Assembly: GCF_032884065.1 (NCBI RefSeq)
Contig: NC_088864.1
Coordinates: 23,761,486 to 23,825,485, forward strand
DNA from: Artemia franciscana
Lineage: Eukaryota; Arthropoda; Branchiopoda; Anostraca; Artemiidae
Length of the DNA: 64,000 nucleotides
Direction: 5' to 3'
Below the pieces are notes generated by a model, which saw nothing but the letters and a program-made list of their open reading frames with translations, was not told the DNA's origin and made no database searches. Shown in pieces: positions 3,497 to 59,498 of this stretch. A program made the translations under genes and the position numbers. Position 1 is the first letter of the stretch, and the number at the start of each line of letters is the position of its first letter.

Positions 3497-4480
3497 ATTT
3501 TGTGAAGGACCAGTTTATTTCAATTATAAGTGTTATTTAATCGAGTGTCTGTCCGTCAACCATATCGGAAGTCATATTCTTATTGTATTCAATGAGCAAT
3601 ATAGAACAAGAGATAACCTAGATTTTCCTCGTTCAGCAAGACCTTCGCCAAATTATAACTGTCTTAGTAGTTCAGGCTTTCGAAATCAGCAAGCTGGAGG
3701 GTGGGATAGGGTCGGTCAAGAGTGTGAATATACTTTGACTGGTATATGTAACACTAAATAGATACGCACCTATTCGGAGCGATAGCGGATGAGAAAGAAG
3801 GCTACACAGCTAGGATGGGGTCAATTGAATCGCCCTAAAGAAAGACCACGGGCAGAAAAGAACTGTAACAAGAGCACTATGAGAAAAACAAAGACGCTGT
3901 CAGATCAAGAATTAAAAAAACAAGAATGAAGCACAGCGGAATCTGAAGAACGGCTCAGGGTATTAAGTTGAACTTTTCAAGACATGTTGAAGGGAATTTT
4001 GAACTTATCATCCTTTTGAAAGGGATTTGCAGTTTACTGAACACAGTATGTATTTTGAAAGTCTTCTCTTTTATAACGTTAATAGACATAAAAATGGCCG
4101 AGACTTTCACGAACAAATATCAACATATATCAAACTGTCGATTTGTGTTTTATTATATCTTTTCCGTTATCTTGGTTTCCTTTTTTTATTGTTGTTATGA
4201 CGAATAGTGTCTCTGAGTTCACAATCAGTATTGTTTTCAGTGAAGCGCAAGTGACATTCTGGTCTTTACACAGCACAGGGGATGTTAGTCCGACTCCTGT
4301 TTACGGTGGTTTCTATTCGTTTTGATTTGAACTTGATTATTTCTTGTAATTTCTGCTCGTTTATCGGTTTCACTTATTTATTGATAGTTATTTTTGTTGA
4401 ACCACTATTTGACTTTATTTCCGCTCTCCGCAGTGCAATGTAACTTTTTACTTTTTTGTGGAAAAAGCTACTTTTAAATA

Positions 4481-4915
4481 AACAAGAGCTTATATGGCAC
4501 TTGTGACGAGGCCGGAAGAGCCAAGAGCTCATATGGTATGAGCTCTAGCCAAATTATAAGAATCAATAGGTTGATTTAAAAGGAAAGATCAAAGACTTAA
4601 TGCCGGTTGGTACTTAAAATAAGAGCTCTGAGTCACGAGGTCATTCTAAATATCAAAATTCATTAAGATCCGTTCACCCACTCTAAGTCATAAATACAGC
4701 ATTTTTTCTAATTTTTCCTTTCCCTTCAGATGATCTAATCGGGGAAAACGACTTTATCGAGTCAATTTGTGCAGCTCCCTGATACGCCTACCAATTTTCA
4801 TCGTCCTAGTACGTCCAGAAGCCCCAAACCCGCCAAAGCACTGAACCCCACCTCCTAACTCCCCCGAAGAGCGAATCCAGTACGGTTACGTCAATCACGT
4901 ATCTACATTTGTTTA
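4481..4915 (+). mobile_element. Family B repeat, 3'-truncated copy
   Basis: Starts AACAAGAGCTTATATGGCAC and contains the near-palindrome AGAGCTCATATGGTATGAGC, then AATCAATAGGTTGATTTAAA, TTAATGCCGG and AAAATAAGAGCTCTGAGTCA. It shares these with 21610-22775 and with 33333-34202 (inverted). It stops near 4915, short of the family's 3' hairpin. Confidence 0.75.
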
Positions 4916-5782
4916 TACTAAAAGCTCTTCTATCTGCTGAATCAAACGCTTGTTCATAATCTCTATAACTGAGGACTGGACGGGCCTAATCATTCACACT
5001 TCTCAGTTATATTTCTAAGAGTGAAGTCTGGTCAGCACAACCTCTCTATTTCCTAAAAACCTGACTGTTCTTCTCTTAAAACCATATGCATAAGAGTTTA
5101 AAAAGCATCTTAACATTAAGTAATTTGCTTCCTGTAGAAACCAAGCTCGTGCGTTTTAATTCAGGTTTGCCTAAAGGCCCTAGGTGCTTATCTTTCAAAA
5201 ATTATACTTGTAATCTTTAGTAATTGATCTCTAACGTCATAACTAGGCTACCATTATTCAATAGCTTATTCGCCACAGTGCCAGAATTTTGGGCCTTCTT
5301 ATTTTTCAGTTGTTTTGGTAGTCATTAACTCTTCTTGGCAAAATAAATCTCCAATCTTGTCAAATTGTCGCACTTATTCTTTTCTATATCATTTCCTGTG
5401 AATCTACCACTGTAAACAAATTCTCAAAATGTTAAGTCTATTTAGCACCCCTCCTATTACTAGTAGAGACCCTGTTTCTATTTTTAACGGGGACTTTCAA
5501 ACTAGCTACTCCCTCTGAACTTTTATACGTACCAACACATTTTACTATTATACCGCCTGGCTGCATCTTAAAAAATGTAATCCATGGCATCCACTTCACA
5601 ATACCCTTAATTCATTTTTAGATCTTTCTCTACTTCCCTTTCATTCCTATGTCATCTCACTATAAGACCTGTAAAACTCCTCAATTTTCTACCAAACTTA
5701 AAAGCGTTTTCACTAATATTCCTAGTTGCAATTCTGAATTATTCCATCGATTTTCTAAATTGTCAAATTTTAGACAATAGTA
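4916..5782. other. Stretch with possible decayed LINE-like coding relic
   Basis: No intact frame. Around 5440-5760 the plus strand can be read in pieces such as SIFNGDFQTSYSL and WHPLHNTLNSFLDLSLLPF, reminiscent of the end of a non-LTR endonuclease (GDFN-type motif). The match is too weak to assign. Confidence 0.15.
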
Positions 5783-7501
5783 TCAAACAGTTCGTGGTAA
5801 CGAACTGTAGTAAGGAGCGACCCGGCTCAATAGTAACCAAAACTCTAAAAAATTGAATTTTGATGTCAATAGCTACATCAAAAGAATCGCATTTTAATGC
5901 TGATTTTAAATAAATAAGTTTCATCAAGTTTAGTCTTACCCATCAAAAGTTACGAGCCTGAGAAAATTTGCCTTATTTAGGAAAATAGGAGGAAACACCC
6001 CCTAAAAGTCGTAGGATCTTAGTGAAAATGACACCATCAGATTCAGCGTATCAGAGAACCCTACTGTAGAAGTTTCAAGCTCCTGTCTACAAAAATGTGG
6101 AATTTTGTATTTTTTGCCAGAAGACAAATCACGGGTGCGTGTTTATTTGTTTGTTTTTTTTTCCCAGGGGTCATCGTATCGACCAAGTGGTCCTAGAATG
6201 TCGCAAGAGGGCTCATTCTAACGGAAATGAAAAGTTCTAGTGCCCTTTTTAAGTAACCAAAAAAATTGGAGGGCGTCTAGGCCCCCTCCCACGCTCATTT
6301 TTTCCCAAAGTCAACGGATCAAAATTTTGAGATAGCCTTTTTGTTCAGCATAGTCGAAAACCATAATAACTATGTCTTTGGGGATGACTTACTCCCCCAG
6401 AATCCCTGGGGGAGGGGCCGCAAGTTACAAACTTTGACCAGTGTTTACATATAGTAATGGTTATTGGGAAGTGTACAAACGTTTTCAGGGGGATTTTATT
6501 TAGTTTGGGGGTGGGGCTGAGGAGAGGGGGCTATGTTGGAGGATCTTTCCTTGGAGGAATCTGTCATGGGGGAAGAAAAATTCAATGTAAAGGGCGCAGG
6601 ATTCTCTAGCATTACTATAAGAAAACAATGAAAAATAAACATGAAAACGTTTTTTCAAATGAAAGGAAGAAGTAGCATTGAAACTTAAAACGAACAGAGA
6701 TTATTACGCATATGAGGGGTTCTAAAAATACTTTAGCATAAAGAGCGAGGTATTTAGGAGGAGATACATACCTCGCTCTTTATGCTAAAGTATTTTTAGT
6801 AATTTCAACTATTTATTCTACGGCCTTTCTGATTCAGGGGTCATTCTTAAAGAATTGGGACAAAACTTACGATTTAGTGTAAAGAACGAGGTATTAACGA
6901 GGGTACAAACTCCCTCATATACATAATGATAATTAAAGAATATAAAAGTTTGTTACGTAAGTTAATTCTAAAGTTACGTATATTTTTTGCTAATAAAAAA
7001 ATTCGTTAAAATTAATAGTTGCCTTTTTATGTAACCGAAAAATTGCATGGCAACTAGGCCTCCTTCCCCATCCCATATTTCTCAAAATCGTATGATCAAA
7101 ACTAAGAGAAAGCCATTTAGCCAAAAAAGGAATTAATATGCAAATTTCGTTTGAATAGTTTACGTGTGAGAGTCAAAATCAAACATGCATTAATTCAAAA
7201 ACGTTCAGAAATTACATAAAAAAACTAAGTTTTTTTAACTGAAAGTAAGGAGCGACATTAAAACTTAAAACGAACAGAAATTACTCCGTATATGAAATGG
7301 ATTGTTCCCTCCGCAATCCCTCGCTCTTTACGCTAAAGTTTGACTCTTTGCCACAATTCTGCTTTTTAAAACAATTAAAAGCTTTAGCGTAAAGAGCGAG
7401 GGATTGCGGAGGGAACAATCCATTTCATATACGGAGTAATTTCTGTTCGTTTTAATGTCGCTCCTTACTTTCAGTTAAAAAAACCTAGTTTTTTTATGTA
7501 A
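5783..7501 (+). mobile_element. Family A palindromic element, copy A1
   Basis: The left end is A|TCAAACAGTTCG followed by the palindrome CAGTTCGTGGTAACGAACTG; the right end is TAA|T after a ~290-nt hairpin (7211-7502). An inner 32-bp perfect inverted repeat (6722-6753 with 6768-6799, loop 14 nt) carries the motif CTTTAGCATAAAGAGCGAGG. No protein is encoded and no target duplication is seen. It is nearly collinear with 25566-27318 and 57750-59497. Confidence 0.85.
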
Positions 7502-7502
7502 T
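7211..7502. repeat. Terminal long hairpin of A1
   Basis: The left arm 7211-7338 pairs with the right arm 7382-7502, with a loop of about 43 nt. Apart from an 8-nt length difference and one or two substitutions the arms are perfect. Both arms carry A1-private bases (TTACTCCG, GGATTGTTCC, ATTACAT). Confidence 0.9.
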
Positions 7503-19165: not shown

Positions 19166-19735
19166 AAGAAAAGGTATGTTTATTTATCGGAAAAAAAATT
19201 AGAACAAAAAGGAATTAGAACTTCATGGGCCCAATGTTTCCAATATTGGAAAGTTTGGTGTAAGACGAATGGACCACATTCGATACCCTGATATAATCAT
19301 TTTAACGACATGTGTTTCATGGGGCTTTGGTTTTGCACTTGGCTACTAAATGCATAATGCAATGATAGAGCCAAGGGAGACAGGGAATACGGGTTTGTAA
19401 TAGAAAGAAGGAGGGACGAAGCTACATAGCTGCATGTAAGATACACCTGGTGATTCCCACCACGCAACCCAGGTGTGGCTGCAAAAATATTTTCAGAGAG
19501 GTTCTGTAAAATATTTTAAAGGGGCAAAGCCTGTGAAAATATTTTCCACGTGGAAAATGTACTAGGCAATTTTTTTTTTTTTTTTTTGACGCAAAAGTCT
19601 CATTTTTCTAAATGTTAAAAAATTCGTAATGTTGCATAACTGGATTAACTGCATAACTTGTTAATGCAGTCCAAGGGCCTTTTTTCGCCGAGGCTTCATT
19701 TGTCAGAGAATTATAATCATCGATTTGTCATTGTA

Positions 19736-21333
19736 TTAAATAAAAAAAGTTTTTTTTAAAGCGAAAATAAGAAGCAACATTAAAACTTAAAACGAGCAGA
19801 AATTATTCTGTATAGAATTATAATTATTTCAATAACTATTCCGTACAGAATTATTCTGGGTGCTGAGGAGGGTATATGGAATAATTTCTGAAGGTTTAAT
19901 GTCGCTTCAGTTACTTCCAGTTAAAAAAAACTTGTTTATTTCAATTTAATTTCTGAACATTTTTGAACTAATGCAGATTTTGATTTTGGTTCACAGTACA
20001 TGAATAATTAAAACGAAATTTGCATTATTAATTTTACTCTTTTTGGGCTAAATAGCTTTCTCAAAATTTTGATCAGACAATTTTTAGAAAAAAATTAGGG
20101 GGGAGGGCCTAGTTGCCCTCTAATTTTTTTTTGGTTACTTAAAAAGGCCACTGGAGCTTTTAATTTTACGTTATTATTAGTAATAAATATACGTAACTTA
20201 AGAATTAACTTACGTAACAAACTTCTATATTCGTATATTTTTATTAAGTATCTAAGGGGGCTCGCTCCCTCGTCAATACCTCGTTCTTTACGCTAAAGTT
20301 CAAATAGTGTTCCAATTCTTTAAGAATAACCCCTGAATCAAAGAGTCCGTTTAATTAGAATAAGTAGCTCTTCTGAAATTACTAAAAATACTTTAGCGTA
20401 AAGAGCGAGGCATTGAGGAGGTTATGAACCCCCTCATACACGAAATAATTTCTCTTCGTTTTAAGTTTTAATGTTATTCCTTATTTTTGGTTGAAAAAAC
20501 TTGTTTTTTTTATTTAATTTCGCATTGTTTTCTAAATATTACTGGAAAATCCAGCGCTCGCTTCGTGAAGATTCTCATACCCCATAAAACATTCCGGGGT
20601 AGCCTCTTACCCCGGCCCCCCACCAGAAAAAACCTGAAAACTTCTGTAAACTTCCCAATAACTAATACTATATGTAAACAATGGGCAAAGTTTAATTTGC
20701 AACCCTTCCTCCAAGGACTATGGGGGATTAAGTCGTCCTCAAAGACATTGTTATTATATTTTTCGACTATGCTGAACAAAATGGCTATCTTAAAATTTTC
20801 ATCCAGTGACTTTGGAAAAAAAGGAGCATGGGAGGGGGCCTAGTTGCCCTCCAATTTTTTGGTTACTTAAAAAGCACACTAGAACTTTTAATTTCCACTT
20901 GAATGAGCCCTCTCGTGACATTCTAGGATCACTGGGTCGACATGATCACCCCCGGGAAAAAAAACAAATAAAAAAATAAACACGCACCCGTGATCTGTCT
21001 TCTGGCAAAAAAATATACAATTCCACATTTTTGCAGATATGAGTTTGAATTCTCTAAAGGTTCTCTGATACGATGAATATGACGGTGTGATTTTCATTAA
21101 GATGCTATGGCTCTTAGGGTATGTTTCCCCCAATTTTCGAAAATAAGGCAAATATCCTCAGGCTCGTAACTTTTGATAAGTAAGACTGAACTTGACGAAA
21201 CTTATATATTTAAAATCAGCATAAAAGTCCTATTCTTTTGATGTATAAATTGGTATTAAAATTCCATTTTTTTGAGTTTCGGTTACTATTGAACCGGGTC
21301 GCTCCTTGCAGTTCGTTACCACGAACTGTTTGA
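19736..21333 (-). mobile_element. Family A element, minus copy A4
   Basis: On the minus strand it starts A|TCAAACAGTTCG at 21333 with the 20-nt palindrome and ends TTTAA|T at 19736. It lacks the extra inner inverted arm of A1-A3, and its terminal hairpin (19736-19965) is strongly decayed, so it looks older. Confidence 0.8.
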
Positions 21334-21609
21334 TTACTAACCTTGAAAGAAGATGCACATTATCGAAGTCGTTTATAAATGGCATTCTTCAGACAGCTTA
21401 TAGCCGTCATGAGTGTCGATGAAGAAAGAAAAGAAAAAGAAAAAGCTAATCAGCACAAATTTGTTCATAGCTTAGCTTTTCGAGAGTAATCCCTGAAATA
21501 ACTTTAACGACCATAAAACGTAACATTCAAAAATGTCCGCTATTTTTTAATAATTGAGAATTAACTCTCATGAGAAAGAATTAATTCTCATTCTATGAGA
21601 AACAATTGA

Positions 21610-22775
21610 AACAAGAGCTAAGAGCTCATATGGCACTTGTGACGAGGCAAGAAGAGCTAAGAGCCAAGAGCTCATATGGTATGAGCTCTAACAAAATTCT
21701 AAGAATCAATGGATTGATTTAAAAGGAAAATCAGAGGCTTAATGCCGGTCAGGATTTAAAATAAGAGCTCTGAGTCACGATGTCCTTCAAAATTTAAAAA
21801 TTTATTAAGATCTGATCACCCACTCGTAAGTTATATATACCTAATTTTTTCTAATTTTTCCTCTCCCTTATAGCCCCCCAGATGGTCGAATCTGGGAAAA
21901 AGACTTTATCAAGACGTCCCGATATTTTCACTCAAGTGTTCATTCCTTCAAGTGTTTTCCAAGATTTCCCCCTCCAACTCCCCGCACTGTCACAGGATCA
22001 GGTCGGAATTTAGAATAAGAGCTTTAGAGTACAAGATCCTTCTAAATATCAAATTTCATTAAGAAATTATTAGAAAATATTTTTCCCACCAAGTTTCATC
22101 TCGATCCCTCCAATATAAGCGTTTTCCGTGATTTTAAATTCCCCTACCCCAAACTCCCCCGAATATCACCGGATCCGGTCGGGATTTAAAATAAGAGCTT
22201 TGAGACACGATATCCTTCTAAATATCAAATTTTATTAAGATCCGATTGAACCTTACCGGTTTGTAAGTTGAAATACCCCATTTTTCTAATTTTCCAAAAT
22301 TAACCCTCCCCCCAACTACCCCAAAGAGATCAGATCCATTCTGGTTATGTCAATCATGCATCTAGGACTTGTGCTTATTTTTCCCACCAAGTTTCATCCG
22401 GATCCCTCCACTCTAAGTGTTTTCCAAGATTTTAGGTTTCTCCCTCCCAACTTCTCCCACCCCCAATGTCACCAGATCCGGTCAGGATTTAAAATAAGAG
22501 CTCTGAGACACGATATCCTTCCAAACATCAAATCCCGTTAAGATCTAATTAACCGTTCGTAAGTTGAAACTACTTCATTTTTTATTTCTTCCGAATTAAC
22601 CGGCCCCCCACTCCCCCCAGATGGTCAAATCGGAAAAATAAAAATAACTTTTTTAAATTTAATCTGGTTCGATCCCTGATACGCCTGCCAAATTTCATCG
22701 TCCTAGCTTATCTGGAAGTGCCTAAACTAGCAAAACCAGGACCAACAGACAGACAGACACTTGGTTAATACCAAG
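21610..22775 (+). mobile_element. Family B repeat, longest copy with internal tandem units
   Basis: Same start as the copy at 4481, including a perfect AGAGCTCATA-TGG-TATGAGCTCT palindrome. A block beginning GATTTAAAATAAGAGCT recurs at about 21760, 22006, 22172 and 22487, so the interior is an imperfect tandem array. The right end has GACAGACAGACAGACACTTG and a hairpin CTTGGTTAATACCAAG. No protein is encoded. The class is unknown; hairpins at both ends and no visible target duplication would fit a rolling-circle type. Confidence 0.75.
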
Positions 22776-24869: not shown

Positions 24870-25430
24870 AATTTTTCGCGTTTCCCCTCCTCAATACCCT
24901 CCCCTTTACGGTAAAGTTTGACTGTTTGTCTCAATATTTAAAGAGCGACTACTGAAACATGGGGCCATTTAATTAAAATAGGAAGCCTTTTCAAAAGTGC
25001 TAATAGCTCTAGCGTAAAGAGCAAGGTATTGAGGAGGGGGAACACCTTTATATACGTTATAAATCTGAAAATTAATATGTAAATTTTGTTTTATTTTTTA
25101 ATTTACGTTGACCCAAATTCGAGCCTCCATTAGTTGAAAAACGTTCAGAAATTAAATAATAAAGCAAAAACATAAAACGAACAGAAATTATTCCGTACAT
25201 GAATGGGGCTGCCCTTTCCTCAAAGCCTCGCTCTTTGCGCTAAGTTTTTACTGTTGTAAAAAGTAGAGTTGTGACAAAGAGTCAAACTTTAGCGTAAAGA
25301 GCGAGGCGTTGAGGAGGGATATCCCCTTTCATATATAGAATAATTTCTGTTCGTTTTAAGTTTGAATGTCACTCCTTACTTTCAGTTAAAAAACTTTTTA
25401 TTATTTAATTTATACTAAGAGTACTTGCTT
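24870..25430 (+). mobile_element. Family A element, older fragment A8
   Basis: Carries GCGTAAAGAGCAAGGTATTG, then a hairpin region (25150-25420) with the family motif on both arms. The arms have diverged from each other (GGGGCTGCCC against GGGGATATCC), unlike A1, A2, A3 and A5. It ends just before A2. Confidence 0.65.
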
Positions 25431-25565
25431 GGTATTATACCAAATCTTTCATAACTTCCATCCGAACTTTTATTTGTTTATTTTCTTATGCTACCGATTG
25501 GGCATAAAGTACAAAAACAGTTAATTATAGTAAAATTATTGCAGCTGCACTCGAAATTTTATTTA

Positions 25566-27318
25566 TCAAACAGTTCGTGGTAACGAACTGTAGTAAGGAG
25601 CGACCCGGCTCAATAGTAATCAAAACTCTAAAAAATTGAATTTTGATATCAATAGCTACATCAAAAGAATTGCATTTTAATGCTGATTTTAAATATATAA
25701 GTTTCATCAAGTTTAGTCTTACCCATCAAAAGTTACGAGCCTGAGAAAATTTGCCTTATTTAAGAAAATAGGGGGAAACACCCCCTAAAAGTCGTAGAAT
25801 CTTAACGAAAATGACACCATCAGATTCAGCGTATCAGAGAACCCAACTGTAGAAGTTTCAAGCTCCTATCTACAAAAATGTGGAATTTTGTATTTTTTGC
25901 CAGAAGACAAATCACGGGTGCGTGTTTATTTGTTTGTTTTTTTTTCTTTCTTCCTTTTTTCTTTTTCCCAGGGGTCATCGTATCGATCAAGTGGTCCTAG
26001 AATGTCGCAAGAGGGCTCATTCTAACGGAAATGAAAAGTTCTAGTGCCCATTTAAGTGACCAAAAAAATTGGAGGGAATCTAGGCCCCCTCCCACGCTCA
26101 TTTTTTCCCAAAGTCAACGGATCAAAACTTTGAGATAGCCATTTTGTTTAGCATAGTCGAAAACCATAATAACTATGTCTTTGGGGATGACGTACTCCCC
26201 CACAATCCCTGGGGGAGGGGCTGCAAGTTACAAACTTTAACTAGTGTTTACATATAGTAATGGTTATTGGGAAGTGTACAGACGTTTTCAGGGGGATTTT
26301 ATTTTGTTTGGGGGTGGGGCTAAGGGGAGGGGGCTATGTTGTAAGATCTTTCCTTGGAGGAATCTGTCATGGGGGAAGATAAATTCAATGGAAAGGGCGC
26401 AGGATTTTCTAGCATTATTATAAGAAAACAATGAAAAATAAACATGAAAACGTTTTTTCAAATGAAAGGAAGAAGTAGCATTGAAACTTGAAACGAACAG
26501 AGATTATTACGCATATGAGGGGTTCTAAAAATACTTTAGCATAAAGAGCGAGGTATTTAGGAGGAGATAAATACCTCGCTCTTTATGCTAAAGTATTTTT
26601 AGTAATTTCAACTATTTATTCTATGGCCTTTCTGATTCAAGGGTCATTCTTAAAGAATTGGGACAAAACTTACGATTTAGTGTAAAGAGCGAGGTATTAA
26701 CGAGGGTACAAACCCCCTCGTATACATAATAAAAATATAAGATTATTAAAGTTTGTTACGTAAGTTAATTCTTAAGTTACGTATATTTTTACTAATAAAA
26801 ACGTTCGTTAAAGATTAAAAGTTATAGTTGCCTTTTTAAGTAACCGAAAAATTGGAGGGCAACTAGGCCTCCTTCCCCACCCCTTATTTCTCAAAATCGT
26901 CTGATCAAAACTAAGAGAAAGCCATTTAGCCAAAAAAAGAATTAATATACAAATTTCATTTTAATAATTTATGTGCGGAGAGCCAAATCCAAACAGGCAT
27001 TAATTCAAAAACGTTCAGAAATTAAATAGAAAAACTAATTTTTTTAGTTGAAAGTAAGGAGCGACATTAAAACTTAAAACGAACAGAAATTATTCCGTAT
27101 ATGAAATGGGTTGTCCCCTCCGCAATCCCTCGCTCTTTACGCTAAAGTTTGACTCTTTACCACAATTCTACTTTTTAAAACAATTAAAAGCTTTAGCGTA
27201 AAGAGCGAGGGATTGCGGAGGGGACAACCCATTTCATATACGGAATAATTTCTATTCGTTTTAAGTTTTAATGTCGCTCCTTACTTTCAGCTAAAAAAAT
27301 TAGTTTTTTTTTATTTAA
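25566..27318 (+). mobile_element. Family A palindromic element, copy A2
   Basis: The left end is A|TCAAACAGTTCG at 25566; the right end is TTTAA|T at 27318. It holds the 20-nt terminal palindrome, the inner 32-bp inverted repeat (26525-26556 with 26571-26602) and the long right-end hairpin (27021-27318). It is inserted just after an older family-A fragment (24870-25430). Confidence 0.85.
27021..27318. repeat. Terminal long hairpin of A2
   Basis: Arms of about 125 nt on either side of a ~43-nt loop (27147-27190). Both arms read TTATTCCG and GGGTTGTCCCC. Only two or three mismatches are seen between the arms. Confidence 0.9.
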
Positions 27319-27526
27319 TTTCTTTAAGCATAAATTCCCGATGTAAAACCTTTAAAATCACATTTCTAATCTTTTAATGCTTCATAGTTTAAATATTTAA
27401 TCGAAGTGAGTTTGATAATTTTCCTTTAAATTTATAATATAATTTAACGAAAAATGGATAATCTAATTTTTACTTCATTTTTTAGATTGATTCCACCATG
27501 TCTGCCAAATACATTTTTGTACTTGA

Positions 27527-27826
27527 ATTAAATAAAAAAAACAAGTTTTTTCAACTGAAAGTAAGGAGTGACATCAAAACTTAAAACGCACAGAAATTAC
27601 TTCGTATATGAAAGAGGCTGCTTCCTCATCAACGCCCCGCTCTTTACGCTAAAGTTTGACTCTTTCTCTCAATTCTTCTTTCTAAAACAGTAAAAAACTT
27701 TAGCGTAAAGAGCGGGGCGTTGATGAGGAAGCAGCCTCTTTCATATACGAAGTAATTTCTGTGCGTTTTAAGTTTTGATGTCACTCCTTACTTTCAGTTG
27801 AAAAAACTTGTTTTTTTTTATTTAAT
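27527..27826. repeat. Terminal long hairpin of A5
   Basis: Arms of about 125 nt with private bases on both sides: GGAGTGACATC, ACGCACAG, TTACTTCG, GAGGCTGCTTCC and CAACGCCCCGC, each mirrored exactly. The loop is about 44 nt. Confidence 0.9.
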
Positions 27827-29242
27827 TTCTGAACGTTTTTGAATCAATGCATGTTTTGATTTTGGCTCTCCGCAGAGGAATAATCAAAACGAAATTTGCA
27901 TATTTTTTTTTTTGGCTCAATGGCTTTCTCATAACTTTGATCGAATGATTTTGAGAAAAAAAGAGCGGGGGACGAAGCCTAGTTGCCCCCCGATTTTTTG
28001 GTTAATTATAAAGGCAACTAGAACTTTTAATTTTTTACGAATCTTTTTATTGTTAAAAGATTTACGTAACTTATAAATTAGCTTACGTAAAGAACTTTTG
28101 TATTCTCATGTTTTTATTACATATATGAGGGGATTCGCCCCATCGTCAGTACCTCGCTCTGTACACTAAAGCTTAAATTTTATCCCAATTCATTAAGAAT
28201 GACCCCCTGAATCACAAAAGCCGTAGAATAAGTAGTAGAAATTACCGAAAATACTTTAGCGTAAAGAGCGAGGTATTAGAAGGAGGTGAGCCCCTCATAT
28301 GGGTAATAATTTCTGTTTGTTTTAAGTTTTATTGCTGTTCCTTACTTCCAGCTGAAAAAACTTTTTCACTTTTATTTTTTAATTGTTTTTTTTTAAATAA
28401 TGCTAGTAAATCCTGCTCTCCCTTCATGGAAATTTTCTTCTCCCATTACAAATTCTCGAAGGAAAGTTCCCCCAGCATATCCCCCTCTTCTCAACACCTC
28501 CCCCAAACCAAAAAAATCCTCCTGAAAACGCCTGTATACTTCCCAATAACCATTACTATATATAAGCACAGGTCAAAGTTTGTAACTTGTTGCCCCTCCC
28601 ACGGGGACTGTGGGGGAGTAAGTCGTCCCCAAAGACATAGTTATAAGGTTTTTTGACTACGCTGAATAAAATGGCTATCTCAGAATTTTGATCCGTTGAC
28701 TTTGGGAAAATAATTAGCGTGGGAGGGGGCCTAGGTGCCCTCCAATTTTTTTGGTCACTTAAAAAGGGCACTAGAACTTTTCATTTCCGTTAGAATGAGC
28801 CCTCTTGCAGCATTCTAAGACAACTGGGTCGATACGATCACCCCTGGGAAAAAAAAAAACAAAAAAACAAAAAAACAAATAAACACGCATCCGTGATCTG
28901 CCTTCTGGCAAAAAATGCAAAATTCCACATTTTTGTAGATAGGAGCTCGAAACTTCTACAGTAGAGTTCTCTGATACGCTGAATCTGATGGTGTGATTTT
29001 CGTTAAGATTCTATGACTTTTAGGGGGCGTTTCCCCCTATTTTCTAAAATAACGCAAATTTTCTCAGGCTCGTAACTTTTGATGGGTAAGACTAAACTTG
29101 ATGAAACTTATATATTTAAAACCAGCATTAAAATGCGATTCTTTTGATGTAGCTATTGGTATCAAAATTCCATTTTTTAGAGTTTTGGTTACTATTGAGC
29201 CGGGTTGCTCCTTACTACAGTTCGTTACCACGAACTGTTTGA
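27528..29242 (-). mobile_element. Family A element, minus copy A5
   Basis: On the minus strand it starts A|TCAAACAGTTCG at 29242 and ends TTTAA|T at 27528. Its terminal hairpin (27528-27826) has nearly perfect ~125-nt arms that differ from those of A1-A3. It lies about 210 bp right of A2 in opposite orientation, so A2 and A5 form a head-out inverted pair with hairpin ends facing each other. Confidence 0.83.
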
Positions 29243-30064
29243 TCAATGGTTAACTACTTAAATACATCTGCGGACAGAAGATTCTCCTTGGAATATGAAA
29301 ACTATCAACCAGATTAGTTTTACGAAAAAATACATTACAGTCCTAATGACACGGCACAAGTAAATTTGAATTAAAAACATAATTGCCGAAGCATTTTTTC
29401 CAGCGAAAAAATAACATACATCATTTTGGAGAAATTAAAACCTCCAAGAATACCGAGAACCGAATGAGCTGTAGGAAGAGAGCGGAATTGAAGGGATGGA
29501 GATTTTAACTCCATTTGAACAAAAATGTCGCCACTCCTTATGTATAATGACAACCGTTTTCTTAGCCCAACATCTTTTTTTCCTACCTTAGAAAGAACAA
29601 CAGTTTCTTATTGGGATGAAAAAAAGTTAATATAGCTTGCTATAACGCTTTTTTTTGCTCTCCATATATATCTTTCGAATCAATAGTGTTCTTCCTTTTA
29701 GAGAGAGAAATTGGATCACCTACATAGTGGGGTTCCGAGAAAGGTTTCTTTTTTTCGTACTTGACTAATTATGTGCAATACGCTCCTTTCATCTACGTGC
29801 GTTACAAACAAGAGATAAGGACAATGACTTAAAATTTGGCAGTCATCAGATTGTTCGGACATTATGAATAGCGGTACCAGGTGGCTGGGCACTTTGATAA
29901 TTTGACAGATATTTATGACCATTGCTTTGGGGGACGTAGTAAAATTTGACCTTGGTGAGTGAATTTATTCACTGTCTCTTTGTTTTGTTTCCAGTTAGTA
30001 AAGAAAAGTAAGGTGATGCAACTGGGTGTACAAAAGTGGAGATAATTCTTTGTTAATAAATGCT

Positions 30065-33332: not shown

Positions 33333-34202
33333 CATTTGGTATTAACCAAATGACATATAGCGATCGCAAATTCTGTCGGTCGGTCTGTCTGTCTGTCTGT
33401 CCCGGTTTTACTAGTTTAGGCACTTCCAGATAAGCTAGGACGATGAAATTTGGCAGACATATCAGGGACAAGACCAGATTAAATTAAAAATAGTCTTTTC
33501 CCCGATTTGACCATCTGGGGAGGGAGTGGGGGACGGTTAATTCGGAAAAATTAGAAAAAATGATGTATTTTTAACTTACGAACGGGTGATCAGATCTTAA
33601 TGAAATTTGATATTTAGAAGGAACTCATAACTCACAGCTCTTATTTTAAATCCCGACCAGATCTGGTGACATTAGGGGAAGTTGGAAGGGGAAACCAGAA
33701 ATCTTGGAAAAAGCTTAGAGTGGATAGATCGTGATGAAACTTGGTGGGTAGAATAAGCAAATGTCGTAGATGCGTGATTGACGTAACCGGACTGGATCCG
33801 CTCTCTTTGGACGAGTTGGGGGGGGGGGAATCAGTGCTTTGGCGAGTTTGGTGCTTCTGGATGTACTTGGACGATGAAAATTGTCAGGCGTGTCAGGGAC
33901 CTGCGCAAATTGACTTGATAAAGTTATTTTTCCCGATTCGACCATCTTGGGGGGTTGAAAGGAGAGGAAAAATCAGAAAGAATATGTTATTTTTAACTTA
34001 CGAGTGGGTGATCGGATCTTAATGAATTTTGATATTTAGAAGGCCCTTGTGTCTCAGAGCTCTTTTTTTAATCCTGACCGGCATTAAGCCTCTGATTTTC
34101 CTTTTAAATCAATCTATTGATTTTTAGAATTTCGCTAGAGCTCAAGCCATATGAGCCTTTGGCTATTCCGATCTCGTCACAAGTGCCATATGAGCTCTTG
34201 TT
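33333..34202 (-). mobile_element. Family B repeat, inverted copy
   Basis: The reverse complement of the copy at 21610. It begins (minus strand) AACAAGAGCTCATATGGCAC at 34202 and ends at a hairpin CATTTGGTTAATACCAAATG at 33333, preceded by a TCTG microsatellite (33377-33402). It has fewer internal tandem units than the 21610 copy. Confidence 0.75.
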
Positions 34203-34654
34203 TCATTAGTTCCTTCGTTACTTTAAAAACAAATTTGGCCTATAGATTTGCACATTAGAGGGAAGGGTCGAAGTACAGCGGGTCTGCATGCACAATGTGT
34301 TAGGTACAATTATTCTGCATATTATAAAGTAGGAATTGTTTTCTGACTTCAAACTGTCTAAATACTTTACCCCCCCCCCCTGATGTGGAAATACATATCC
34401 CAAATTATATATTTCGCATATATTCTGTCACTTGTCGTTGTCTTGTCTCGCGTTAAGCTGAAAAAAACTAACGAAGAAACCGATTTGTTCTCGAGTTTAT
34501 ACAGCGTAAACTTGAGTGATTGGCGCATAATACATGGCCCAAAATTCCTTCCCCCTACAGAAATAAAAAAAAACTCAAATAAAATTCTCAAGTTTGGAAA
34601 GCCTTATTTTCCACAGGGGGGGGGGGTAAACTCCTTGAATCGGTTAGGATAGGC

Positions 34655-40158: not shown

Positions 40159-40863
40159 ATGTTTAAGTTTACAATGACTGATGAACTTACCATGGCAAAA
40201 GCCGATGAAGATGCTCAAAGAGTCTATGCCAAAAAACTTGCTGCTGATAGAGAAAGTCAGAAAAGAAAGCGTGCCGAGGAATCAAAAGAACAGCAAGGAA
40301 ACAGGCTTGAGGCTGATAGAGAAAGAAAGAACAGAAAGCGTGCCGAGGAATCAAAAGAACAGCAAGGAAACAGGCTTGAGGCTGATAGAGAAAAAAAGAA
40401 CAGAAAGCGTGCCGAGGAACTACCAGAGCAACGCGGAAGCAGACTTGCTGCTAAAAGAGAAAGTGAAAAAAGAAGGCGTGCCGAGGAATTACAAGAACAG
40501 CAAGAAATCAGGCTTGCCTCTGATAGAGAAAGTAAGAAAAGAAAGCGTGCCGAGGAATCACAAGAACAGCAAGAAATCAGGCTTGCTGCTGATAGAGAAA
40601 GTAAGAAAAGAAAGCGTGCCGAGGAATCAGAGCAACCTGAAAGTTATCGCCTGGCATTCAGGTACAACCCAGTCGATGATTATAGCTTGAGTAGATGTGT
40701 TCAAATCGGGACAATGTCTAAAATTTGTCCCTATTGCAAGGCCTTGAAATTCAATGGTGAAACAATGGGAATGTGTTGTGCCTCAGGAAAAGTAAAACTT
40801 CCTCTATTGGCTGCACCACCAGAGCCATTGAAGACGAATGAATGCTTGCCTGAAAAATTCTAA
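40159..40863 (+). CDS. Helitron Rep-helicase N-terminal fragment with 23-residue repeats
   Basis: 234 residues. Residues about 25-160 are charged tandem repeats of 23 residues (69 nt), each with RKRAEES-x-EQQ-x-x-RL-x-ADRE, likely coiled-coil. Then come VQIGTMSKICPYCKALKF and GMCCASGKVKLPLL, the cysteine-rich segment seen near the N-terminus of animal Helitron proteins (CPYC and CC may bind zinc). It should lead into the HUH nuclease, but after PPEPLK the sequence jumps to helicase C-terminal DNA in another frame and soon stops. This is an internal-deletion junction at about 40830-40845. The repeat tract also keeps a second frame open (40181-40690), which is a shadow. Confidence 0.8.
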   Translation: MFKFTMTDELTMAKADEDAQRVYAKKLAADRESQKRKRAEESKEQQGNRLEADRERKNRKRAEESKEQQGNRLEADREKKNRKRAEELPEQRGSRLAAKRESEKRRRAEELQEQQEIRLASDRESKKRKRAEESQEQQEIRLAADRESKKRKRAEESEQPESYRLAFRYNPVDDYSLSRCVQIGTMSKICPYCKALKFNGETMGMCCASGKVKLPLLAAPPEPLKTNECLPEKF

Positions 40864-41719
40864 TTTATGGGCACACGTAAAAATATTAAAATTAACTACA
40901 AATATGCGTGTCCGATTGCAAAACGATGACTCTGGTCAAACATTTTCAGATCAATTGCTGACAATTGGAAACGGAAAGCTCCCAGTAGACTCAATTTCAG
41001 GACGTATACAACTACCTGCTGATTTCTGTAATTTAGTGACGTCCAAAAATGAATTGATTGAAAAAGTATTTCCGAATATTCTAAAAAATTATAAAAATAA
41101 TAAATGGCTAAGTGAAAGAGCGATTCTCGCACCCAAAAATATAGACGTCCACGAAATCAACAATATTGTTTTGACCAAGATTCGAGACCAGGCAGTCCTT
41201 TACAAGTCAGTCGACACAGTTTTGGAACCAAATGAAGCGGTTAATTATCCATCTGAATTTTTAAATTCCATAGATCTTTCAGGGTTTCCACCACACGTGC
41301 TACAACTAAAAATAGGCGTACCAATAATACTTTTAAGAAATATAAACCCACCAAAGCTTTGCAATGGCACTCGACTTGCCGTAAAAAAAGCAATGGAAAA
41401 CCTAATAGAGGCCACAATCTTGACAGGGCCTTTTGAGGGTGAGGCTGTTCTTATTCCTCGCATTCCCATGATTCCAACGGATCTGCCTTTTCAATTTAAA
41501 AGATTGCAATTCCCAATTCGATTAGCATTTGCAATCACCATTAACAAAGCTCAAGGTCAATCATTAGAAAAATGTGGTATAGATCTTAATACTGATTGTT
41601 TTTCCCATGGACAATTGTACGTTGCATGTTCGAGGGTCGGTAAACCTGACAATCTATTTATATGCAGCGACAATTGGACAGCGAAGAATGTTGTATATTC
41701 GCAAGTTTTACGCAGTTAA
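40838..41719 (+). CDS. Helitron Pif1-like helicase C-terminal domain, copy 1 (fragment)
   Basis: 293 codons that match only the end of Helitron helicases. Present are the region around LSERAILAPKNIDVHEINN, GVPIILLRNINPPKLCNGTR, the motif V-like FAITINKAQGQSLEKCGIDL and the motif VI-like QLYVACSRVGKP. The Walker motifs and the Rep domain are absent, so this is a fragment that begins at the deletion junction. The ATG is fortuitous. It is almost identical to the copy at 41914. Confidence 0.85.
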   Translation: MNACLKNSNLWAHVKILKLTTNMRVRLQNDDSGQTFSDQLLTIGNGKLPVDSISGRIQLPADFCNLVTSKNELIEKVFPNILKNYKNNKWLSERAILAPKNIDVHEINNIVLTKIRDQAVLYKSVDTVLEPNEAVNYPSEFLNSIDLSGFPPHVLQLKIGVPIILLRNINPPKLCNGTRLAVKKAMENLIEATILTGPFEGEAVLIPRIPMIPTDLPFQFKRLQFPIRLAFAITINKAQGQSLEKCGIDLNTDCFSHGQLYVACSRVGKPDNLFICSDNWTAKNVVYSQVLRS

Positions 41720-41724
41720 TTTGT

Positions 41725-41905
41725 ATTGTATCTATCTATCTATCTATCTATATCAAAACGAGTTGTGTGTATGCATGTTTGTTTGTTTGTAAAAAGAGCG
41801 TTTGCATATGATGTCATTATTAGTACATACGGCTTTGTATATGCAGAGACAATGGGAAAGCCAAGAATGTTGTATATTCGCAATTTTTACGTAGTTTAAC
41901 TCCTG
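41725..41905 (+). repeat. Internal Helitron 5'-end-like segment after helicase copy 1 (repeated at 42759-42930)
   Basis: A TCTA microsatellite leads into ATATCAAAACGAGTTGTGTG and TTTGTTTGTTTG, which resembles a Helitron left end. It is followed by a decayed repeat of the helicase ORF end (ATGTTGTATATTCGCAA). The same arrangement recurs after helicase copy 2 at 42759-42930. Confidence 0.6.
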
Positions 41906-41913
41906 CAGACGAA

Positions 41914-42753
41914 ATGAATGCTTGCCTAAAAAATTCTAATTTATGGGCACACGTACAAATATTAAAATTAACTACAAATATGCGTGTCCGATTGCAAAAC
42001 GATGACTCTGGTCAAACAGTAGACTCAATTTCAGGACGTATACAACTACCTGCTGATTTCTGTAATTTAGTGACGTCCAAAAATGAATTGATTGAAAAAG
42101 TATTTCCGAATATTCTAAAAAATTATAAAAATAATAAATGGCTAAGTGAAAGAGCGATTCTCGCACCCAAAAATATAGACGTCCACGAAATCAACAATAT
42201 TGTTTTGACCAAGATTCGAGACCAGGCAGTCCTTTACAAGTCAGTCGACACAGTTTTGGAACCAAATGAAGCGGTTAATTATCCATCTGAATTTTTAAAT
42301 TCCATAGATCCTTCAGGGTTTCCACCACACGTGCTACAACTAAAAATAGGCGTACCAATAATACTTTTAAGAAATATCAACCCACCAAAGCTTTGCAATG
42401 GCACGCGACTTGCTGTAAAAAAAACAATGGAAAACCTAATAGAGGCCACAATCTTGACAGGGCCTTTTGAGGGTGAGGCTGTTCTTATTCCTCGCATTCC
42501 CATGATTCCAACGGATCTGCTTTTTCAATTTAAAAGATTGCAATTCCCAATTCGATTAGTATTTGCAATCACCATTAACAAAGCTCAAGGTCAATCATTA
42601 GAAAAATGTGGTATAGATCTTAATACTGATTGTTTTTCCCATGGACAATTGTACGTTGCATGTTCGAGGGTCGGTAAACCTGACAATGTATTTATATGCA
42701 GCGACAATTGGACAGCGAAGAATGTTGTATATTCGCAAGTTTTACGCAGTTAA
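41914..42753 (+). CDS. Helitron Pif1-like helicase C-terminal domain, copy 2 (fragment)
   Basis: 279 codons, nearly identical to the frame at 40838-41719 except for a 42-nt in-frame deletion after NDDSGQT and a handful of substitutions. It keeps the motifs KAQGQSLEKCGID and YVACSRVGKPDN. The spacing between copies is about 1.03-1.08 kb. The flanks (a TCTA microsatellite, CGAGTTGTGTG, a decayed third repeat of the ORF end) are duplicated with it. Confidence 0.85.
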   Translation: MNACLKNSNLWAHVQILKLTTNMRVRLQNDDSGQTVDSISGRIQLPADFCNLVTSKNELIEKVFPNILKNYKNNKWLSERAILAPKNIDVHEINNIVLTKIRDQAVLYKSVDTVLEPNEAVNYPSEFLNSIDPSGFPPHVLQLKIGVPIILLRNINPPKLCNGTRLAVKKTMENLIEATILTGPFEGEAVLIPRIPMIPTDLLFQFKRLQFPIRLVFAITINKAQGQSLEKCGIDLNTDCFSHGQLYVACSRVGKPDNVFICSDNWTAKNVVYSQVLRS

Positions 42754-43429
42754 TTTGTATTGTATCTATCTATCTATCTATCTATATAAAAACGAGTTGT
42801 GTGGATGCATGTTTGTTTGTTTGTAAAAAGAGCGTTTGCATATGACGTCATTATTAGTACATACGGCTTTGTACATGCACAGACAATGGGAAAGCCAAGA
42901 ATGTTGTTTATTCGCAATTTTTACGTAGTTTGAAACACATATATAAATCTATCTATATTCACAGGTGGGACACAGGGACACAACTACAATGGCGAATAAC
43001 TAATATGGCGCGTAACGACTTACGCGCGCGGGGGGGCTTGGGGGGGCGCGAAGCGCCCCACCAACTAGGTGTTGGGGTGGCGCGATGCGCCACCCCAACA
43101 GCTAGTATATATATAGAGCTTTCAGTGATGGTGCATGCATCAAAAGGTGGAGATAACAAAAAGAGCTTTCATATGCTAAATCGGCAAATAACTGAACTCC
43201 ACGAAGTCGTTCACGAAGTTTGTTAGAAAAACGTGACTTACAAACTGCGTTGTTAGGGCTAAGCACAGAAACTTCTTAATATATCAAATGGTGACTCATG
43301 ATCATTCAGGGGTATATGCAGGGGATTTTTGTGGTGCCCTCATTCCTTCTTTTACTCTTTTTTCAACAAACTTCTCAGTTTGATCAATTACATCTTGCCA
43401 TTCACGTTAAAATTTTTAGCACTTAAAAA

Positions 43430-44817
43430 AACTTCCTATCCAAATTAAACGGCCCTTGTGATTCAGTAGTCTAAAAAAAATGGACAAACAATCAAAGTTT
43501 AGCGTAAAGAACAAGGTATTGAGGAGGGGGGAACCTTTCAGATTCGGAATAACTTCTGTTCGTTTTGAATTTTAATGTTGCTCCTTACTTTCAGTTGAAA
43601 ATGCTTGTCTTTTAATTTGTGATGGTTTTTCAAATAATGTTGGTATATCTGGCTCTCCCTCCATGAAAAATTCTCTCTCTTTACGGGAAACTCCTTCGTA
43701 GGAAGTTCCTCCCACGAAAAATACACTACTCACCCTAAAATTACCTCCGAACGATTCCATCCTCAATGAGAATTCCCCCCCCCCCCGTAAAATTTCTTGC
43801 GGACAACTGAGCCTTAAAAATTCTCCTTAGCATGCTTTCATTCGAAAAAGACTTTAATTTCTAATCGTTTTTCTGATCACTCCGGAAATCCCCCTTCCTT
43901 GGAAACTTTTTCCATGAAATCCAAACCTGCTAAAAATTTCCCCGGATAATTCCACCGGAACATATTCACATGTAAAATTCAGTTGGCAAAGATAAAATAA
44001 AACCAATAAAAAGAACTTCTATAGGAATTCTGTCAATTCCTCCCAGTATAAAATTCCCCTTTTAAAGTTTACCCCGGGATATTTCCCTCCCCATAAAAAC
44101 TCACCCCAAGCAAAATCCCCCCCACCCGAAAAACTTTTATATACTTCCCAATAAAAAATATTATAGGTAAATAATTGGGAAAATTTATAACTTCAAGGCA
44201 TATTCTCAGCGGCTGTGGGGAGTCATGTTATCTTCAAAGGTACGGTTTTTGGACCATTTAACTCTGCTGAAGAAAATCGCTATCTCAAAATTTTAATCGG
44301 ACGGTAACGGGAGAAAAGAGGTTTGGGTGGGGGCTTGCTTCCCTACAATCTTTTTGGTCACTTAAAAAAGGCACTAGAACTTTTAATTTCGGTTGAAACG
44401 AGCCCTCTTCCGATGTTCTAGGACCATTGGTTCGATACAATCACCGCTGGAAAAAACAACAAATGAACGCGTATTCGTGATCTCTCGCTTGGCTAAAAAA
44501 AACAAACAAACAAAAATTCCATATTCTTGCAGATGGGAGCTTGAAACCTCTACAGTAGGGTTCTCTGATACGCTGAATCTGACTTTCATTAAGATTCTTT
44601 GACTTTTTGGGGGGTCTCCCTCCTTTTTTGAAAATCAGGCAAATTTTCTCAGGCCGATAGCCTTTCATAGGAAACACTAAGATTAATGAATGTTATAAAT
44701 TTTGGAATAAGCAAAATAAGCCGATTTTATTGATATCGAAATCCTGTTTTTTATAGTTTCGGTTACTATTGAGCCGCATCGCTCCTTACTTACAGTTCCT
44801 TACCACAAACTGTTTGA
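43430..44817 (-). mobile_element. Family A element, truncated and decayed copy A6
   Basis: On the minus strand it starts A|TCAAACAGTTTG at 44817 with a mutated terminal palindrome and follows the family body. It lacks the terminal hairpin end and fades at about 43430. Many substitutions indicate an old insertion. Confidence 0.7.
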
Positions 44818-54632: not shown

Positions 54633-54707
<75 letters not shown>

Positions 54708-56936: not shown

Positions 56937-57749
56937 CTAAAAAATACGAAACACAAACTTACTTGATCAACAAAAATAAATACACTTGCTTTGCGTAATG
57001 CAACTTCATGGCAATAATATTTATATTCTTGTATCATCGATAAATCTTAGTCTTTCCATGTTACTCTTTTGATTTGAGAGCAAAATGGTTTTAAAAGCCT
57101 AACCCCGTATTCAATGTAGCTTATATTAATTAATTGGAATTACCTATTGAATAAGCGCAATGCTCTATTCATTGCTCTATTTTATGCTCTATTCAACGTT
57201 GTTTAGGCAGCAAAATTAATTTACACGAATAATTTGAAAATCGAAAAAAATGGTCAAATCTAGCGGCTTAACTTTCCCTCTCTATACGTCTACACTGTTC
57301 ATATTGTACCGAAAATTACAGTTAAAATGAAAAAAAAATATTAAGAGTTAAAAATCTTGCTGCTCTACAACACCGTCCTTTTACGAAAGGTTCTAATAGG
57401 AAAAATTTTAATTTATACCAATACTTGTTCTTTTTTTCCTGTTTGTTTGGACTGTTATGGAGACGCTTTCTTATAACCTCATCACCGGAATCGAAGTCCT
57501 GGAATTTATTCTAATAGATAAATACATCAAGAATTTTCTATCTATAAAGGGTGCAAAGATAGCTTATTAAGTTCTAACACGCAATCAGCAAATAATTATT
57601 TTAAAAGGTTTCAGTAAGTACTTTTGAACTCAATTCAAAGTAATCGCAATTGCCTGCTGAACGCCAAAATTGATGCGTTAATCCACATCAGAAACGGATT
57701 TATAACAATACAGAAACTTTCGAATCTTTGCGAATCATGAGTAGCTGTA

Positions 57750-59497
57750 TCAAACAGTTCGTGGTAACGAACTGTAGTAAGGAGCGACCCGGCTCAATAG
57801 TAACCAAAACTCTAAAAAATTGAATTTTGATATCAATAGCTACATCAAAAGAATCGCATTTAATGCTGATTTTAAATATATAAGTTTCATCAAGTTTAGT
57901 CTTACCCATCAAAAGTTACGAGCCTGAGAAAATTTGCCTTATTTCAGAAAATAGGGGGAAACACCCCCTAAAAGTTGTAGGATCTTAACGAAAATGACAC
58001 CATCAGATTCAGCGTATTAGAGAACCCTACTGTAGAAGTTTCAAGCTCCTATCTACAAAAATGTGGAATTCTGTATTTTTTGCCAGAAGACAAATCACGG
58101 GTGCGTGTTTATTTGTTTGTTTTTTTTTGCTTTTTTTCTTTTTCCCAGGGGTCATCGTATCGACCAAGTGGTCCTAGAATGTCGCAAGAGGGCTTGTTCT
58201 AACGGAAATGAAAAGTTCTAGTGCCCTTTTTAAGTGAACAAAAAAATTGGAGGGCATCTAGGCCCCCTCCCACGCTCATTTTTTCCCAAAGTCAACGGAT
58301 CAAAATTTTGAGATAGCCATTTTGTTCAACATAGTCGAAAACCATAAGAACTATGTCTTTGGGATGACTTACTCCCTCACAATCCCTGGGGGAGGGGCTG
58401 CAAGTTACAAACTTTGACCAGTGTTTAGATATAGTAATGGTTATTGGGAAGTGTACAGACGTTTTCAGGGGGATTTTATTTTTTTCGGGGTGGGGCTGAG
58501 GGGAGGGGGCTATGTTGGAGGATCTTTCCTTGGAGGAATCTGTCATGGGGGAAGAAAAATTCAATGAAAAGGACGCAGGATTTTCTAGCATTACTATAAG
58601 AAAACAATGAAAAATAAACATGAAAACGTTTTTTCAAATGAAAGGAAGGAGTAGCATTGAAACTTAAAACGAATAGAGATTATTATGCATATGAGGGGTT
58701 CTTAAAAATACTTTAGCATAAAGAGCGAGGTATTTAGGAGGAGATAAATACCTCGCTCTTTATGCTAATGTATTTTTAGTAATTTCAACTATTTATTCTA
58801 CGGCCTTTCTGATTCAGGGGTCATTCTTAAAGAATTGGGACAAAACTTACGATTTAGTATAAAGAGCGAAGTATTAACGAGGGTACAAACCCCCTCGTAT
58901 ACATAACAAAAATACAAGATTATGAAAGTTTGTTACGTAAGTTAATTCTTAAGTTACGTATATTTTTTACTAATAAAAACGTTCGTTAAAAATTAAAAGT
59001 TCTAGTTGCCTCTTTAAGTAACCGAAAAATTGGAGGGCAACTAGGCCTCCTTCTCCACCCCTTATTTCTCAAAATTGTCTGATCAAAACTAAGAGAAAGC
59101 CATTTAGCCAAAAAAAGAATTAATATACAAATTTCAATTTAATAATTTATGTGCGGAGAGCCAAAACCAAACATGCATTAATTCAAACGTTCAGAAATTA
59201 AATAAAAAAACTAATTTTTTTAGCTGAAAGTAAGGAGCGACATTAAAACTTAAAACGAACAGAAATTACTCCGTATATGAAATGGGTTGTCCCCTCCGCA
59301 ATCCCTCGCTCTTTACGCTAAAGTTTTACTCTTTGCCACAATTCTACTTTTTAAAACAATTAAAAGCTTTAGCGTAAAGAGCGAGGGATTGCGGAGGGGA
59401 CAACCCATTTCATATACGGAGTAATTTCTGTTCGTTTTAAGTTTTAATGTCGCTCCTTAGTTTCAGCTAAAAAAAATTAGTTTTTTTTTTTATTTAA
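57750..59497 (+). mobile_element. Family A palindromic element, copy A3 (in the TNPO3 region)
   Basis: The left end is A|TCAAACAGTTCG at 57750; the right end is TTTAA|T at 59497. It is collinear with A1 and A2, with the right-end hairpin at 59197-59498 and the inner inverted repeat near 58700-58775. If the TNPO3-like gene continues to the right, this copy lies in one of its introns. Confidence 0.85.
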
Positions 59498-59498
59498 T
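59197..59498. repeat. Terminal long hairpin of A3
   Basis: Arms of about 125 nt. Both read TTACTCCG with GGGTTGTCCCC and AGCTGAAA, a combination different from A1 and A2. One visible mismatch is in the right-arm CCTTAG. Confidence 0.9.

Follow-up and report, generated by a model that had tools for sequence, protein, structure and literature searches.

The 3´ ends of a dispersed non-coding repeat family, here called family A, form a long palindrome whose two arms are nearly identical within each copy while the copies themselves differ, and whose loop, in some copies, faces the opposite way with respect to the element body. The pattern of arm identity is firm; the choice among the copying mechanisms that could underlie it is not. 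With moderate confidence, we favor the reading that family A is a non-autonomous Helitron/DINE-like family in which the arms of the 3´ palindrome are homogenised by template switching during DNA synthesis. Homogenisation of inverted repeats, those of transposons included, is already known; the setting and scale in family A are new.

Copies of family A in the window

The window, by which we mean the whole 64-kb stretch of DNA that was analyzed, is AT-rich (35.6% GC) and carries at least five long non-coding copies of family A (A1 to A5, ~1.6-1.75 kb each) plus older pieces:

5781-7502, + strand: element copy A1, non-coding
25564-27319, + strand: element copy A2, non-coding, ~1.75 kb
57748-59498, + strand: element copy A3, non-coding
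19735-21334, - strand: element copy A4, older, with a terminal hairpin that is without its centre and has diverged arms (12/72)
27527-29243, - strand: element copy A5, tail-to-tail with A2, ~207 bp between them
25070-25412, + strand: fragment F, older, a short piece of the body and a hairpin whose arms have diverged (22/94), with a loop of the A5 type
44819-43486: older family A piece

Fragment F ends ~150 bp before A2, such that F, A2 and A5 form a cluster of one family. Several pieces of another dispersed repeat family (71-84% identity), inverted and direct, lie at 4480-4920, 21620-22758 and 33383-34203 of the window, which also contains a further long imperfect inverted repeat at 62881-63127 (71% self-complementary) and 70 consecutive A at 54636-54705. 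Neither tRNAs (ARAGORN) nor Rfam matches at the gathering score were found in the window. Exact hairpin, 5´-end and body patterns of family A gave no copies in the viral contig and genome contig collections, and A2 had no match among phages and plasmids at E 1e-5; one shorter hairpin pattern matched L001 over 26 nt only, which we judged to be chance. A word search of the open-licence literature returned no recognised description of the family, a result that does not prove absence. All tests described below were carried out with the copies inside the window, four of which have intact hairpins (A1, A2, A3 and A5).

Element ends and classification

Two short features mark the 5´ end, given here for A2:

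25571-25590, + strand: 5´ terminal short hairpin, CAGTTCG-TGGTAA-CGAACTG
25593-25604, + strand: 5´ subterminal 12-nt motif, GTAAGGAGCGAC

The 20-nt core of the 5´ hairpin is identical in A1-A5 and has two mismatches in the older copy (44793-44812). The 12-nt motif, ~27 nt inside the element at the 5´ end, recurs in the A2 terminal hairpin, in inverted orientation in the right arm (27273-27284), 35 bp from the 3´ end, and in direct orientation in the left arm (27054-27065); these sites are exact in A1 and A2 and have at most one mismatch each in A3 and A5. All six 5´ ends (A1-A5 and the older copy at 44819) show an A followed by TCAAAC, the canonical Helitron arrangement of TC after A. The canonical Helitron 3´ CTRR was not found; four 3´ ends carry TTTAAT and that of A1 carries TGTAAT (n = 5), and reading the 3´ end in the opposite orientation gives TTTGAT. 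The edges are A...T in all five copies with both ends, and no target duplication was seen. No empty insertion site was detected in the window, where six flank joins gave no match across the junction.

Of 30 stop-to-stop ORFs with a length of 95 aa or more, 15 were run through Pfam, and neither a Rep domain nor an autonomous partner was found among these 15. Pif1-type helicase fragments (40838-42753) scored above the Pfam cut-off, and an integrase-like ORF fell slightly below it; together they give the window a eukaryotic appearance. The Pif1-type helicase fragment forms a tandem duplication (40829-41897 and 41904-42931, 94% identical, ~1.07 kb) that lies after an ORF (40159-40863) in which short peptides are repeated; the duplication and the peptide-repeat ORF resemble a decayed Helitron-type coding region.

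By its sequence features, family A resembles Helitron/DINE-1-like non-autonomous elements, without some of the defining features of each. As described in parts of PMC4067079 and PMC7492417, DINE-1/HINE elements share with family A the non-coding body, a subterminal inverted repeat (12 nt here), a short 5´ inverted repeat, a 3´ palindrome and the lack of a visible target duplication. The DINE-1/HINE subterminal inverted repeats are given as 11-15 bp, the 3´ one 38-60 bp and the 5´ one 2-4 nt from the ends (PMC4067079), compared with ~27 nt for the 5´ motif of family A, and the 3´ palindrome is 5-10 bp there compared with ~300 nt here. Close to the 3´ end of family A, and within the ~300-nt palindrome, is an AT-rich stem (AAAAAAC...GTTTTTT). 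Two further comparisons showed differences: Helentrons (DINE-1/HINE), in the accounts cited, insert between T and T, whereas the flanks of family A are A and T; and ATon elements, for which part of PMC3422177 gives insertion at AT and TIRs of 15-17 bp, differ from family A in that its ends, ATCAAACAG and (inverted) ATTAAATAA, have only a few bases in common.

The arms of the terminal hairpin match within copies and differ between copies

The initial annotation had described four long hairpins at the ends of family A copies, and all four were recovered where it had placed them, each a ~300-nt palindrome forming the 3´ end of A1, A2, A3 or A5, with arms of 121-132 nt and a loop of 43 nt:

7211-7502, + strand: A1 terminal hairpin (left arm 7211-7338, loop 7339-7381, right arm 7382-7502)
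27021-27147, + strand: A2 terminal hairpin, left arm
27148-27190, + strand: A2 loop, 43 nt, in the A1-A3 orientation
27191-27318, + strand: A2 terminal hairpin, right arm, forming the element 3´ end
59197-59498, + strand: A3 terminal hairpin (left arm 59197-59323, loop 59324-59366, right arm 59367-59498)
27698-27826, - strand: A5 terminal hairpin, left arm (element orientation)
27655-27697, - strand: A5 loop, inverted compared with A1-A3 relative to the element body
27527-27654, - strand: A5 terminal hairpin, right arm, forming the element 3´ end

The predicted fold is very stable, with an energy of -157.1 kcal/mol for the A5 hairpin strand compared with a shuffle mean of -29.1. Comparing arm with arm, we counted 0/96 differences in A1, 2/103 in A2, 1/103 in A3 and 0/103 in A5, that is 0-2 per ~100, whereas the same columns differed between copies at 2/103 to 19/103 (2-18%); the element bodies differ by 4-14%. 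This divergence check bears out the claim that the arms are near-perfect while the copies differ, and the motifs that had been quoted as private to single copies were indeed present on both arms. The outer 31 AT-rich alignment columns were excluded from these main counts because MAFFT moved the A2 right arm by one base at its outer end, creating a spurious arm difference of 10/127; the outer A/T runs of the arms are themselves unequal in length. The imperfections that remain are a private 7-nt deletion in the A1 right arm and single-arm substitutions, two in A2 and one in A3.

Substitutions are paired between the arms. Both arms split the copies in the same way in 18 of 96 ungapped columns, and variation was confined to one arm in 3, while random re-pairing of the columns gave a mean of 2.14 and a maximum of 8 paired columns, with none of 20,000 trials reaching 18. 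The excess was also seen when the outer columns were kept (19/120, reached by 0/20,000 shuffles) and among A1-A3 alone (4/96; shuffle mean 0.14, 4 reached by 0/20,000). Since 14 of the 18 paired columns split A5 from A1-A3, the 18 represent few independent events. Thirteen of them are transitions and five transversions; the body of A1 compared with that of A5 shows 111 transitions and 82 transversions. At column 82, the T on both A2 arms is also found in F and A4 and may be a retained or reintroduced state instead of a change private to A2.

Between copies, the arms have diverged about as much as the body: 4.9-5.2% compared with 4.9% for A1-A2, 1.9-2.9% compared with 3.7% for A2-A3, 15.5-15.6% compared with 13.9% for A1-A5, and 18.4% compared with 13.5% for A2-A5. 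Arm divergence broadly follows that of the body, so constraint has not simply kept the arms unchanged. From the terminal branches of the body, 31.2 arm-arm differences are expected without copying since the copies split and 3 were observed (Poisson 2e-10); for A1-A3 only, the values are 13.9 and 3 (Poisson 5e-4). For the time after insertion these expectations are maxima, as private changes in the body may be older than the insertion itself. The branching of A1-A3 is almost star-like (internal branch 0.0035, terminal branches 0.019-0.031), which suggests that much of their private change arose after insertion. In a tree of the arms, the two A5 arms are paired at 100% bootstrap and the A1 arms fall together, the pairings of the A2 (65%) and A3 (66%) arms are weak, and the F arms are unpaired; A4, of which only the outer arms are left, was omitted.

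A further observation of the initial annotation, that an older fragment (25150-25420) has diverged arms, was reproduced: the arms of F differ at 22/94 positions and those of A4, likewise older, at 12/72. Both copies are also without parts of an arm or of the centre, and homogenisation may therefore have ended through insertion, damage or age.

The loop has been inverted relative to the element body

Aligning the 43-nt loops revealed a second difference between copies, which is new here: relative to the body, the loop is inverted in A5 and F compared with A1-A3. The A5 loop aligned to those of A1, A2 and A3 with scores of 54, 54 and 50 in inverted orientation and -3, -2 and 3 in direct orientation, while the maxima of 300 shuffles were 12, 9 and 12. 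For the F loop, the inverted scores were 56, 56 and 56 against A1, A2 and A3, and the comparison with A5 gave 56 direct and 0 inverted (shuffle maximum 21); the direct A3-F score of 11, beside 56 inverted, equals its own shuffle maximum. Since these alignments are opposite in A5/F and A1-A3, the loop has been turned over at least once with the arms still paired. That A1, A2 and A3 have one orientation in common indicates that inversion is not frequent. We also scored loop orientation in 10 hairpin stretches; besides F, only the inner hairpin of A5 exceeded its shuffle maximum (26 compared with 23, in the A1-A3 style), and the other remnants are too decayed for the ancestral orientation to be read from them.

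An inner hairpin contains a newer palindrome

Also new here is an older hairpin module within the element in the five long copies; in three of them it contains a palindrome of its own:

26427-26750, + strand: inner older hairpin module of A2
6625-6945 (A1), 58603-58925 (A3), and, on the - strand, 28094-28394 (A5) and 20224-20525 (A4): inner module homologues
26525-26602, + strand: new palindrome in the inner module of A2, 35-nt arms, 8-nt spacer
6722-6799 (A1) and 58703-58779 (A3): homologues of the new inner palindrome

Gaps aside, the inner arms mismatch each other at 15/64 positions in A1, 13/59 in A4 and 8/61 in A5; for A2 and A3 only short alignments (21-22 nt) were obtained, with 2/22 and 2/21 mismatches. 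When the same inner arms were compared among A1, A2 and A3, the values were 1/94 to 11/88. The inner arms of A1 are thus farther from each other than from their A2 and A3 counterparts, the reverse of what is seen in the terminal hairpin. In A5 the two inner arms (8/61) resemble each other more than either resembles its counterpart in other copies (12/76 to 22/84), and because they are no farther apart than arms are between copies, the inner hairpin is a suggestive control, not a clean one. As the inner arms are not kept identical, length, spacer or terminal position matters.

The new inner palindrome is shared by A1, A2 and A3 and missing from A4 and A5. Once reverse-complemented, a 40-nt stretch of A2 that contains the left arm agrees with the adjacent block of A4 at 37/40 positions, those of the spacer among them (alignment score 68, compared with 14 in direct orientation). 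The left arm is thus an inverted copy of its neighboring sequence, a footprint of such copying away from the terminus.

A stretch of ~115 nt precedes both hairpins, in A2 at 26031-26144 and 26814-26927 (element positions 468-581 and 1251-1364, 78% identity), and the duplication is likewise found in A4 and A5. This duplication suggests that the element acquired its present 3´ end as an additional unit, placed behind a former one.

Possible mechanisms of arm homogenisation

The initial annotation had proposed that one arm is rewritten from the other, by gene conversion or by self-primed copying of a single-stranded 3´ hairpin at each transposition. Rewriting itself is upheld by arms that diverge like the body between copies and hardly at all within them; the two agents are each compatible with the pattern, and template switching between inverted repeats during replication was not among the candidates. 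It is this last agent, and not recombinational conversion or transposition-coupled copying, that we infer. For inverted repeats of S. cerevisiae, PMC8604942 reports that template switching makes the arms alike and turns the spacers over, and for RNA hairpins it is reported to be able to create perfect stems and to help in the repair of stems, with complete loop inversions being very rare (PMC8794818). Paired changes, spacer inversion and a new palindrome through inverted copying of a neighbor are all found in family A; because all three published signatures occur together, and one of them away from the terminus, template switching is the most parsimonious explanation. Points that weigh against it are the single loop orientation of A1-A3 and the inner arms, which have not stayed identical.

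In such a process, a growing strand within the palindrome would now and then leave its template for the opposite arm, whether that of its own strand or that of the sister strand, copy this arm and return. Each switch would overwrite mismatches between the arms, a first switch before the loop with a return after it would invert the loop as well, and unequal switch endpoints could give rise to a new palindrome. Switching would take place along the line of descent of the source copies, and probably in inserted copies too, with homogenisation fading after deletions or an excess of mismatches break the palindrome.

An alternative that we regard as rather unlikely is that the arms are rewritten at every transposition, when a single-stranded 3´-hairpin intermediate is nicked and refilled, leaving the arms identical and the hairpin flipped, as in parvovirus hairpin transfer. 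Parvovirus terminal hairpins occur in two orientations, flip and flop. Family A likewise has a terminal palindrome with its loop in both orientations, the palindrome ends at the element 3´ terminus, the arms of the inner, non-terminal hairpin are not identical, and the divergence of the A4 (12/72) and F (22/94) arms fits a process that stops at insertion. Against this alternative, the new inner palindrome indicates that arm copying is possible away from a terminus, the star-like A1-A3 have 3 one-arm differences where 13.9 are expected, and no transposase or nick site was identified in the window; nor, unlike in parvoviruses, was a viral gene or nicking protein identified with family A. The fuller version of this idea, in which a eukaryotic Helitron-like element would renew its 3´ hairpin at each transposition through a nicked, self-primed single-stranded terminus with the loop flipped, in a parvovirus-like resolution, seems to us improbable. 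Hairpin-primed replication of parvoviruses is mentioned in a passage of PMC8794818.

Homologous recombination in place between the inverted arms, as gene conversion or crossover, would account for arm identity and, through crossover, for loop inversion, and we consider it doubtful, as recombination alone does not make the new inner palindrome. Arms of ~128 bp are also short for homologous recombination. Recombination has been proposed together with conversion for the long TIRs of Galileo, which are 98-100% identical within a copy (PMC3573991, in part).

Selection for a paired hairpin, whether for protein binding or as RNA structure, with substitutions compensated singly, would be consistent with paired changes as such and with the very stable fold; it is very improbable given that the arms vary between copies about like the body, that transversions, for which no G-U/G-T intermediate is possible, make up 5 of the 18 paired columns, that mismatches and a 7-nt deletion confined to one arm occur among A1-A3, and that selection does not invert a loop. 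Repeats this long can be collapsed in assembly, with the reads of one arm used for both, yet one-arm differences persist (two substitutions in A2, one in A3, the 7-nt deletion in A1) and the copy-specific states differ among copies, making an artefact the most remote of these explanations.

Significance and relation to known systems

Family A allows arm-to-arm copying to be counted in nature: the palindrome with ~128-bp arms recurs in independent copies, the orientation of its loop can be read, and the same copies carry an older hairpin for comparison. Extended genome-wide, such counts could yield the rates at which template switching or conversion occurs in an animal and could reveal whether repair is tied to transposition; if so, they would show the way in which a mobile element of an unusual class replicates its end.

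The template switching that we favor has its closest counterpart in the coding inverted repeats of yeast, where PMC8604942 reports spacer inversions in repeats whose arms measure 10-16 bp and whose spacers measure 2-5 bp. Those repeats were compared across strains, whereas the repeat in family A is the end of a mobile element seen across copies, and with arms of ~128 bp and a loop of 43 nt, recombination is plausible as well in family A. Among transposons, Galileo (PMC3573991) and Tetris are similar to family A in that the inverted repeats are closer within a copy than between copies; for Tetris, the TIR repeats group together in two of three complete elements, suggesting within-copy homogenisation (PMC4079207; both sources in part). 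The TIRs of Galileo and Tetris lie at both ends of the element, whereas both arms of family A lie at one end. For inverted repeats in Caenorhabditis, active maintenance by conversion or selection has been argued, and these repeats, together with the human Y palindromes cited in the same source, are like family A in having a structure more conserved than the sequence (PMC1803023, in part). The Caenorhabditis repeats are single-locus and lie beside paralogous genes, with arms of 2207 bp in the example given there, whereas those of family A are carried by mobile copies.
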